From positions 1-10,173 of the forward strand of contig CALMPB010000488.1 in the NCBI GenBank assembly GCA_937871985.1: DNA of 10,173 nucleotides, read 5' to 3'. This DNA comes from an uncultured Burkholderiaceae bacterium. Lineage in GTDB: Bacteria > Pseudomonadota > Gammaproteobacteria > Burkholderiales > Burkholderiaceae. Of this stretch, positions 4,120 to 10,037 are shown piece after piece; within the stretch, counting starts at the first letter, position 1; the number at the start of each line of letters is the position of its first letter. Position numbers and translations under genes: made by a program. The notes beneath the pieces were generated by a model. The model was not told the origin of the DNA. It worked only from the letters and a program-made list of their open reading frames with translations, and ran no database searches.

Positions 4120-5756
<1,637 letters not shown>

Positions 5757-5790
5757 TTTTTTGAGTTCTTGAGTTTTTTGGGTTCTTAAG
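5757..5790. repeat. Two tandem 17-bp T-rich units between hemB and the structured repeat
   Basis: Two adjacent 17-bp units, TTTTTTGAGTTCTTGAG and TTTTTTGGGTTCTTAAG, differ at two positions and begin directly after the hemB stop codon. The second unit aligns with the single copy of the same sequence at the left edge of the element near 9763. The element boundary therefore includes this T-rich motif, and it has been duplicated here. Confidence 0.75.
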
Positions 5791-6050
5791 CGGCCGTGGC
5801 GTGCCTGCACCGGCGCGCTCAGGTCGCTGCGGCCCCGGCTGCGCCGGGGCTTCCCATTTTGAGACGGCTTTTCAGGCGCTCGCATAACTCACGCGAACGG
5901 ACACCCCCCGGGTGTCCGTAGACGCCGCGCTCGAACAGATGCTCGCTTGCCTCCTGAAAAGCCGTCTCAAAATGGCTTGCTCCAACTTCGCTTACCGGCG
6001 CAGGCACGCCACGGCCTCATGGTTGCGATTAGTGACGGAACACCTTCGCA
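5774..6050 (-). repeat. Structured palindromic repeat element, copy A (after hemB)
   Basis: This copy aligns to the one at 9763-10037 with a constant offset of 3988 and no gaps over 5791-6034, at about 203 of 244 identical bases. The stems are: outer 5792-5813 with 5995-6016 (21 of 22 pairs); side hairpin 5832-5839 with 5843-5850; inner 5854-5876 with 5953-5975 (23 of 23 pairs); junction 5891-5895 with 5926-5930; apical hairpin 5897-5906 with 5910-5919 around a CCC loop. The strand is set to minus because the A-C mismatches would be G-U pairs in a minus-strand RNA. A block of about 21 bases on the right side (5974-5994, through GGCTTGCTCCAACTTCGC) is unpaired in this fold from 5976 on, yet identical in both copies. 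I see no convincing gene in it. I do not recognise the family. It could be a structured RNA or a non-autonomous mobile repeat, and its hairpins may also end the hemB transcript. Confidence 0.85.
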
Positions 6051-6968: not shown

Positions 6969-8339
6969 TCAATGCGCACCGGCCACCACGGCCAGGTTCT
7001 CGCCGCGTTCAATGGCTTTGTCGCGCAGGCGCAGCAGCATGAACGAAGCGGCGCAGCCGATCAGCATGGGAATCGCGCCGTATAGAAAAATATAGGGCAG
7101 CGGCAGCTTCAAGGCGATGAGGATTCCGCCGACGACCGGCCCCAGTATCGATCCCACCCGCCCCACGCCCAGCGCCCAGCCCACGCCGGTGGAACGGATG
7201 AAGGTGGGATAAGAGCTGCCGGCCAGGGCATTCAGCCCGAACTGCGTACCCACGACGAACAGGCCCGCCGCGAACACGACGATTTCCAGCATGTGCGCGC
7301 CGCTGCTGACCTGGCCGATGGACGCGATCGTCACCGCCGCCAGGCCGAAAAAGCCGACCAGTGGTTTCAGGCTGCCGCGATCCAACAAGCGGCTGATGAT
7401 GATCCCGCCTACCGCGCCACCCAGTTGAAACAAGGAGGTGACGATGACGGCACGCTGCAAGGGTACGCCCGTGCTCGAGATGACCGTCGGCAGCCAGCTG
7501 GCAATGAAATGCAGTGTGATCAGGTTCACGATGAAGCATGTCCACAGCAGCACGGTGAAAGCCGCCCTGTTTTCCGTGAACAGATGCGTGAGAGGCATGC
7601 CGGCGCGCACTTGCTCGTGCACCACCAGCTCGCTCTCGGCGGTGATGCCGGCATTGGGAAACCATTTCTGCATCAACGCCCTTGCCTGCGCGCTGGCGCC
7701 TTTGCGCAAAATCTGGAAGCGCACGGACTCGGGCAGGAAGAACTGGCACAGCGCGGCCACGACCAGCGGCGCGCAGCCGCCCAGGACGAACACCGACGTC
7801 CAGCCGAAACGCGGAATCAGCGCGGCCGCTGCCGCACCGCCCAGCGCCGCGCCGATGGTGTAACCCAGGAACATGATGGTGATCATCGTCGCCCGATGCT
7901 TCTTGGGCGAGTATTCGCTGGTCAGCGCAATGGCGTTGGGCACGGCGCAGCCCAGCCCGATTCCGGCAATGAAGCGCAGCACGATCAGGCTGGTCAGCCC
8001 CGTGGACATCGCGGTCAGCAAGGTGAAGATGCCGAAGAACACCGCGCCCGCCAGCACCGTGCGCTTGCGCCCCAGGCGATCGCCCAGCGAGCCGCCCAGG
8101 GAGGCGCCGAACATCATGCCCACCAGGCCGGCGCTGAACGCAGCGCCGAACGACGCGCGGCTGACGCCCCAGACCTTGATCAGCGTCGGAGCGACGTAAC
8201 CGATGGCCTGCAGGTCGAACCCGTCCACCACCATGATCAGAAACGCCCAGAACAGCAGGTTGACGTGGAATTTCGTAATCCTGGATGTATCGATCAGTTC
8301 CGTCACATCGATGCTTCCGGGTCTTGTCGTTGTACTCAT
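6969..8339 (-). CDS. MFS transporter, aromatic acid:H+ symporter (AAHS) family
   Basis: A 456-residue inner-membrane transporter with the 12-helix layout of the major facilitator superfamily. The first helix ends in DGFD (residues 39-42, in VVDGFDLQAIGYVAP), the hallmark of the AAHS group (PcaK, BenK, MhpT types). The loop between helices 2 and 3 has GDRLGRKR (86-93), and PESVRF (203-208) follows helix 6, also typical. It probably imports an aromatic acid with protons. A strong ribosome site (AAGGAGGAGAC) sits directly before the ATG at 8339, and only 17 bp separate it from the upstream monooxygenase stop, so the two form an operon. That pairing suggests the transporter brings in the substrate that the enzyme hydroxylates. 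The exact substrate cannot be read from the sequence. Confidence 0.93.
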   Translation of the reverse strand: MSTTTRPGSIDVTELIDTSRITKFHVNLLFWAFLIMVVDGFDLQAIGYVAPTLIKVWGVSRASFGAAFSAGLVGMMFGASLGGSLGDRLGRKRTVLAGAVFFGIFTLLTAMSTGLTSLIVLRFIAGIGLGCAVPNAIALTSEYSPKKHRATMITIMFLGYTIGAALGGAAAAALIPRFGWTSVFVLGGCAPLVVAALCQFFLPESVRFQILRKGASAQARALMQKWFPNAGITAESELVVHEQVRAGMPLTHLFTENRAAFTVLLWTCFIVNLITLHFIASWLPTVISSTGVPLQRAVIVTSLFQLGGAVGGIIISRLLDRGSLKPLVGFFGLAAVTIASIGQVSSGAHMLEIVVFAAGLFVVGTQFGLNALAGSSYPTFIRSTGVGWALGVGRVGSILGPVVGGILIALKLPLPYIFLYGAIPMLIGCAASFMLLRLRDKAIERGENLAVVAGAH

Positions 8340-9762: not shown

Positions 9763-10037
9763 TTTTTGAGTTCTTGATCGGCCGTGGCGTACCTGCACCG
9801 GCGCGCTCAGGTCGCTGCGGCCCCGGCTACGCCGGGGCTTCCCATGCCGACAACCGTTTTCGGGCGCTCACAGAACTCGGACGAACGGCCAGCCCCCGGC
9901 TGGCCGTAAACGCCGTCCTCAAACAGCTGTTCGCTTGCACCCCGAAAACGGCCGCCGCCATGGCTTGCTCCAACTTCGCTTACCGGCACAGGCACGCCAC
10001 GGCCTCATGATTGCGATTAGTGGGAAACACCCTCGCA
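9763..10037 (-). repeat. Structured palindromic repeat element, copy B (upstream of the monooxygenase)
   Basis: This copy has the same orientation and geometry as the one after hemB, shifted by exactly 3988 bp. The stems are: outer 9780-9801 with 9983-10004 (19 of 22 pairs; the three mismatches are A-C); side hairpin 9820-9827 with 9831-9838; inner 9842-9864 with 9941-9963 (19 of 23 pairs; three A-C and one C-C mismatch); junction 9879-9883 with 9914-9918 (5 of 5); apical hairpin 9885-9894 with 9898-9907, loop CCC (10 of 10). The left edge carries one T-rich motif, TTTTTGAGTTCTTGAT. The right edge drifts from copy A after about 10037. No coding region is credible here: the short open frames crossing it differ from those in copy A and follow the palindrome. 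Confidence 0.85.

Follow-up and report, generated by a model that had tools for sequence, protein, structure and literature searches.

A dispersed Burkholderiaceae repeat family with a covarying multi-stem fold, probably formed by one strand

Introduction

What keeps the stems of a long palindromic repeat paired when its copies change in sequence? The question is raised by a window (the whole 10,173-nt stretch of DNA analysed here, from an uncultured Burkholderiaceae bacterium) that encodes a cytochrome c assembly protein, ResB, a cytochrome c, an engB-like GTPase, HemB, a TetR-type regulator, an MFS transporter and an FAD mono-oxygenase, and that carries two copies of a repeat, both overlapped by open reading frames. 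Judged by ResB, the closest of 39 loci returned belong to Eoetvoesiella caeni (83%) and an unclassified Burkholderiaceae MAG (80%).

Bacteria commonly carry structured interspersed repeats. ERIC and MITE-like palindromes, for example, are imperfect, 100-250 bp long, and scattered through intergenic DNA. A family of the size reported here that has no Rfam entry and combines paired changes with a defined folding strand and a set orientation to gene ends would be new unless it is the full form of BRE or Bor-1, and its hundreds of natural variants bear on how selection for a shape can act at many sites simultaneously and on what protein recognises that shape.

Results

Copy 1 of the unit common to both copies occupies positions 5775-6034 (direct repeat families D1 and D2), and copy 2 lies in direct orientation 3988 nt farther on, at 9763-10022; the covariance model matched 5807-6002 and 9795-9990, respectively. 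Both are annotated on the minus strand, taken as the folded strand. The outer stem of copy 1 pairs 5792-5813 (5' arm on the plus strand) with 5995-6016 (3' arm; inverted repeat I7), and its outer pairs covary across copies. Inside it are a side hairpin at 5832-5850, identified from sequence and folds, with a GC stem (5832-5839/5843-5850) and a triloop at 5840-5842 (GCA on the minus strand), and an inner stem pairing 5854-5876 (5' arm on the plus strand) with 5953-5975 (3' arm; inverted repeat I2). The inner stem encloses a junction helix at 5892-5929, whose columns covary, around an apical hairpin at 5897-5919 (5897-5906/5910-5919). In copy 2, the outer stem is at 9780-9801/9983-10004 (I16, 86% paired on the plus strand), the inner stem at 9842-9864/9941-9963 (I17, 83% on the plus strand), and the apical hairpin at 9885-9894/9898-9907.

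The copies differ at 41 positions in 229 nt. The initial annotation had put the number of fully compensated pairs at about 11, and our recount gave the same figure (7 + 2 + 2 = 11), with every pair still Watson-Crick. All seven double-changed pairs assigned to the inner stem were found again; this stem is Watson-Crick at 23 of 23 pairs in copy 1 and at 19 of 23 in copy 2, where four pairs are broken on the plus strand (one C.C and three A.C, the latter being G.U on the minus strand). The apical hairpin is perfectly paired in each copy (10 of 10) with two double changes, as claimed, and the two junction changes are likewise real: 5892-5929 goes from C-G to G-C, and 5893-5928 from G-C to A-T. 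The outer stem shows no double change and three one-sided changes between the copies (26 positions compared; 22 and 19 Watson-Crick). When the inner-arm substitutions were redrawn at random 20,000 times, none of the draws reached seven double changes (mean 1.4). The minus strand folded far better than its shuffles, with z-scores of -12.5 for copy 1 and -9.5 for copy 2.

Several other features adjoin copy 1 or its counterpart site. Just ahead of copy 1, at 5755-5788, a 17-nt T-rich unit (TTTTTTGRGTTCTTRAG) is doubled head to tail. Downstream of hemB in the MAG FW106-10_bin.30 (L001), a short relic related to the element is present at the counterpart of the copy 1 site (~7339-7440). The 420 nt downstream of hemB in several relatives (L003, L004, L005, L010, L034, and L035) hold other large palindromic elements whose sequence is unlike that of the window repeat, and these may be sister families of it.

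Covariation was then evaluated across the family. On a model alignment (A5; 105 distinct rows, 196 columns), a tree-aware test found 52 of 75 pairs significant (E < 0.05), compared with one of 18,646 non-pairs, and this sole exception adjoins a helix. The null was obtained with a custom script, not R-scape, by replaying substitutions on a FastTree tree in 150 simulations, and the within-genome copies are related to one another. Because A5 is fitted to the structure model, the test was repeated on a sequence-only MAFFT alignment (126 rows), in which 24 of 29,646 pairs were significant and 23 of these 24 were canonical; most of them are inner-stem pairs, and a few come from the junction, apical and side helices. 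The significant covariation that the initial annotation had anticipated across many copies was present on A5, with the outer stem absent from the MAFFT-alignment result. The recount and the covariation across many copies together rule out chance or an artefact of comparing two copies.

Sequence comparison across 15 aligned copies showed conserved loops and stems that differ widely yet remain mostly complementary. Divergence in paired compared with unpaired columns was 0.168 vs 0.087 in E. caeni, 0.051 vs 0.012 in Pollutimonas bauzanensis (G003), and 0.080 vs 0.078 in genome G054. The earlier proposal of selection for a multi-stem structure is supported, the fold being kept well beyond the two window copies, with the correction that the loops are conserved in sequence too. 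Apical hairpins are swapped as whole blocks among otherwise similar copies, and templated copying, or whole-hairpin exchange between copies, may add to the covariation pattern.

The initial annotation worked on the strand as read, and the mismatches left in the stems point to the other one. Helices were located separately in each copy, with every non-Watson-Crick pair penalised equally, in 127 copies (of 130 matches, L169_1412 was omitted, leaving 129 for position counts, and L113 and L146 were too short for helices). On the plus strand, inner stems contained 87 A.C and 12 G.T mismatches, and 54 C.T and 3 A.G, while the corresponding counts in outer stems were 68 and 15, and 37 and 2. Summed over both stems, A.C outnumbered G.T by 155 to 27 (115 to 27 with repeated contexts removed), and C.T outnumbered A.G by 91 to 5. 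A.C and C.T on the plus strand are G.U and G.A on the minus strand, and single-stranded folds tolerate G.U and G.A. Of 31 sources (the window plus 30 genomes), 24 had more A.C than G.T, one had more G.T, and six were tied. Predicted stability also favored the minus strand (-158.5 vs -144.5 kcal/mol for copy 1; -155.6 vs -120.3 kcal/mol for copy 2). With pairs taken from the model alignment instead, the asymmetry was weak or absent (A.C to G.T, 44:37 in G054 and 10:12 in G003); we trusted the per-copy helices over these values because the model holds pairs that need not form in the G054 and G003 families. The strand required to fold is, on these sequence grounds, probably the minus strand of the window.

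The same mismatches bear on whether the fold needs selection on a folded strand at all, since a DNA palindrome could be tidied by hairpin-templated correction. The near-perfect stems (94% and 96% Watson-Crick), seen even in recent copies, and the exchange of whole apical hairpins between copies would suit this account. Correction of this kind does not fit the asymmetry of mismatches between strands or the conservation of the loops; unpaired columns do favor G>A over C>T, in keeping with the direction of the mismatch asymmetry, but only 1.7-fold, which is too little for the mismatch ratio. We consider the tidied palindrome very improbable. Gene conversion of one arm onto the other, which the initial annotation had named as an outcome that would undermine its claim, would not predict the strand asymmetry of the leftover mismatches either. 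We are highly confident that the window repeats represent a real, strand-specific, structured repeat family.

To describe the spread of the family, we combined several searches, of which those covering more than 40 genomes scored 8-12 candidates per genome (12 in the 200-genome survey), so their counts are lower bounds. A DNA search found matches in 8 of 20 relatives, and covariance model R1 matched 69 of 200 genomes sampled from the family at E <= 0.001. A deeper search of four genomes returned 11, 14, 27, and 34 matches (one of the 11 being a reverse-strand match over another copy). Model R2 matched 9 of 13 named genomes: Paralcaligenes ureilyticus (57, partials included), Candidimonas sp. 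SYP-B2681 (29), Pusillimonas sp. MFBS29 (24), Pollutimonas bauzanensis (14), P. subterranea (13), P. nitritireducens (10), P. harenae (6), Parapusillimonas granuli (5), and Castellaniella sp. S9 (1); it had no match in Achromobacter aloeverae, Achromobacter sp. HZ34, Bordetella sp. LUAb4, or Sheuella amnicola. Farther out, R2 matched at least 34 of 300 genomes of the order and 12 of 274 of the class, mostly with far lower scores. The CGAGTT of the conserved internal loop was kept in 22 of 24 distant loci inspected, and the exact loop pattern occurred in 5 of 398 genomes from the phylum, the reversed control giving none among the matches listed. Several distant loci have a different outer stem in common, after which comes a hairpin of the GGTTACTTTC...GAAAGTAAC type. 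Five distant relatives (L195, L197, L203, L221, and L224) continue straight into a conserved long hairpin with GGTTACTTTC-like and GAAAGTAAC-like arms.

Within genomes, copies can be nearly identical. At least 27 copies in G054 (40 of 80 candidates scored) are 93-100% identical over 241-277 nt, 26 of them matching the query copy at 93-98% over 241-273 nt, and copy pairs in G003 are 92-98% identical. Similarity falls off in the flanks of 30 G054 copies, where weak mosaic motifs are kept, and some copies have flanking genes in common across genomes. Partial copies also exist, as forms lacking the inner hairpin and as end fragments. The near-identical copies, block-swapped hairpins, common flanking genes and flipped orientation at one locus indicate that copies move or are exchanged and that some sites are old or preferred. 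The element is dispersed and looks mobile, with a length of about 245-270 nt.

Individual loci provided further detail. The same convergent genes flank the element in related genomes in which it points in opposite directions (L075 and L081 vs L080 and L085). Short forms in L184, L185, and L186 join element positions ~15-72 to 178-260, without the inner hairpin. Some G054 5' flanks (e.g., L129, L135, and L139) contain repeated units of ~28 nt (GGCCTGYGATCGYCCAAAAAA) before the minus-strand 5' end, and in P. bauzanensis, a 39-nt unit composed of the element end and flank is repeated in tandem, about nine times (L098, 1069-1460).

The position of the element relative to genes, which were called with a custom open reading frame rule, is also constrained. 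Of 119 copies that have a gene within 400 nt beyond the minus-strand 3' end, 101 have this end facing the 3' end of a convergent gene, at a median distance of 82 nt, and the remaining 18 break the rule. Copy 1 follows it, its minus-strand 3' end facing the 3' end of hemB (4740-5756, plus strand; Pfam ALAD), while copy 2 breaks it, the FAD mono-oxygenase gene starting there. Past the minus-strand 5' end, the gene was co-oriented in 62 cases and opposite in 33. Terminator-like hairpins lie between the anchor gene and the element in 18 of 91 cases, compared with 3.0 expected (other side, 3 of 50 compared with 1.0). Co-orientation with replication in G054 (25 of 33, P 0.005) is inseparable from gene orientation. 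Among close pairs, 26 of 27 were inverted in one way (+,-), their minus-strand 5' ends pointing toward one another; the 26 comprise 11 in the first sets and at least 18 found by eye among the matches listed, with three in common. The L169 and L082 pairs come from the first sets, and the odd pair is one in L082 whose weaker second copy is oriented like its neighbor.

These positions raise the possibility that the element is a transcription barrier or mRNA-end protector, spread and kept for blocking read-through or antisense transcription. For 46 of 129 copies, the neighbors on the two sides are convergent and no more than 400 nt away, and this, together with the facing gene 3' ends, is what a barrier would produce; the available part of Silby et al. 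2009 (PMC2718517) describes a comparable tail-repeat-tail bias of Pseudomonas repeats. The same source attributes that bias to least harm. Moreover, the copies inspected have no T-run past the folded strand, and a simple barrier would work without conserved internal loops and on either strand. We consider this explanation distinctly unlikely.

A small RNA family is a second possibility: a minus-strand transcript, antisense to the neighbor's 3' end and acting with a protein or on the mRNA, with each copy selected. The tolerance of G.U and G.A is compatible with this, as is the purine content of the unpaired positions on the minus strand (72% in the genomes counted), as are the 30 of 129 copies, copy 1 included, that are antisense to both neighbors. 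The accessible portion of Hot et al. 2011 (PMC3110155) describes a 70-nt transcript, bprJ, antisense to both neighbors, at one copy of the betaproteobacterial repeat BRE, although the two repeats are compared here by description only. We saw no common promoter in the G054 or E. caeni flanks inspected, and a crude scan detected no minus-strand promoter-like site near copy 1. On balance, we regard a small RNA family as rather doubtful.

Whether the element belongs to a described family was examined with Rfam 15, the check proposed with the initial annotation, which gave no match to the window at E <= 1. Four loci (L040, L042, L049, and L059) gave three sub-gathering matches, none within the element, and 13 distant loci gave five, none at the element; this rules out a known RNA family. 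One of the described RNA-guided or retro elements (IscB omega RNA, or HEARO; a retron; a group II intron; or an IS200/IS605 or IS91 derivative) would share the element's length and long outer stem, and could leave end fragments and internally deleted copies. In addition, the GAAC at the minus-strand 3' end resembles what we take to be IS91 targets. The Rfam result argues against such an element, and Y1, Y2 and reverse-transcriptase enzymes are not common to the carriers tested. Y1_Tnp (PF01797) was absent from the five heaviest or nearest carriers (G001, G002, G003, G037, and G054), and was present in 12 of 69 element-positive compared with 34 of 131 element-negative genomes. RVT_1 (PF00078) was found in 5 of 8 carriers and was absent from G001, G002, and G022, and Y2_Tnp (PF04986) in 1 of 8, its 14 control genomes giving no match. 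The IscB domain RRXRR (PF14239) was found in none of five carriers, the controls being likewise silent. There is little chance, in our view, that the element belongs to one of these systems.

Other candidates were rejected. Plasmid records (three query sequences) and phage records (two query sequences) contained no matches, so carriage by plasmids or phages is not favored; one viral contig matched by pattern. Recurrent neighbor genes were also discounted: with 81 of 104 neighbor open reading frames scanned, the commonest Pfam family occurred in four members (best 25 of 125 families).

Discussion

We found no description of the 250-nt fold in open-licence PMC full text; the nearest repeats, BRE and Bor-1, are known to us by description. 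In the excerpted text of PMC3110155, BRE is a betaproteobacterial repeat of 75-91 bp, often in tandem (VNTR). The window element is like it in being an intergenic chromosomal repeat of Alcaligenaceae and other betaproteobacteria with mobile-element features, but is ~250 nt long, with a same-orientation tandem seen once (L082), sizes being compared from the description only. Bor-1 of Bordetella, as presented in part of PMC2267715, is a structured intergenic stem-loop of 93-117 nt with 128-196 matches per genome. Our element is also a structured intergenic stem-loop family, but its ~250 nt exceed the Bor-1 length given there, and the Bordetella genome without R2 matches (sp. LUAb4) may not be a genome of that paper. 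REP/REPIN and other Pseudomonas repeats, as far as the available text of PMC2718517 describes them, share many intergenic hairpin copies, a tail-to-tail bias and, in REPIN, a similar arrangement of inverted pairs. The fold of the window element is much larger, and its main carriers are without a Y1 transposase. It also differs from ERIC and MITE-like palindromes in having stems free in sequence with paired changes, a specific folded strand and a fixed gene orientation; neither a partner transposase nor a target duplication is established for it. Near its ends, the outer stem forms an inverted repeat of 19-48 pairs, but unlike a shared terminal repeat its sequence differs between copies. Specialists would find the family new unless it is simply the full form of BRE or Bor-1, both known here by description only.

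We propose that the element is a non-autonomous mobile element whose minus strand, folded either as RNA or as single-stranded DNA, would be the part recognised, and put this at about an even chance. A protein would recognise that strand by its multi-helix shape and conserved loops, and this recognition would keep the stems paired; some enzyme might use the same recognition in trans to spread the element. The fixed orientation would come either from a preference for targets that goes beyond gene terminators or from selection against the alternatives. The proposal draws on the covariation, strand asymmetry, dispersal, gene and close-pair orientation, and terminator-like hairpins. It is weakened because Y1_Tnp, RVT_1, and Y2_Tnp are not common to the carriers checked, because no insertion event or target duplication was shown and the flanks keep weak mosaic motifs, and because flanking genes common across genomes also fit old, kept copies or site preference. 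The exceptions to the orientation rule, copy 2 among them, and the near-even model-alignment ratios in G054 and G003 weaken it further.

The nature of the folded molecule can be weighed in part. In the side hairpin, 79 of 113 triloops have the form GNA, and 75 of 113 are closed by C-G, as C(GNA)G, a loop reported in the accessible part of PMC4686876 to be extraordinarily stable in DNA. These triloops favor single-stranded DNA, as do the lack of a common promoter in the flanks inspected and the copies antisense to both neighbors. RNA is favored by the tolerance of G.U and G.A and the purine-rich unpaired positions, both of which single-stranded DNA would permit too. More speculatively, a mobility system not yet described could act on the element, recognising one ~250-nt folded strand, possibly single-stranded DNA, by its shape and loop sequence. 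It would place copies at the 3' ends of chromosomal genes, always in one orientation, and no known HUH or reverse-transcriptase enzyme would take part; we offer this extended form tentatively, as a rather doubtful possibility.

An autonomous copy was considered and rejected: the 1.26-kb insertion in L182 (527-1789) looks IS3-type. From its transposase-like translation, we take this insertion, and a matching piece in L183, to be an IS3-type element. The IS3-like insertion is at the same loop position of the element in these two copies of one genome (near 2345 in L183).
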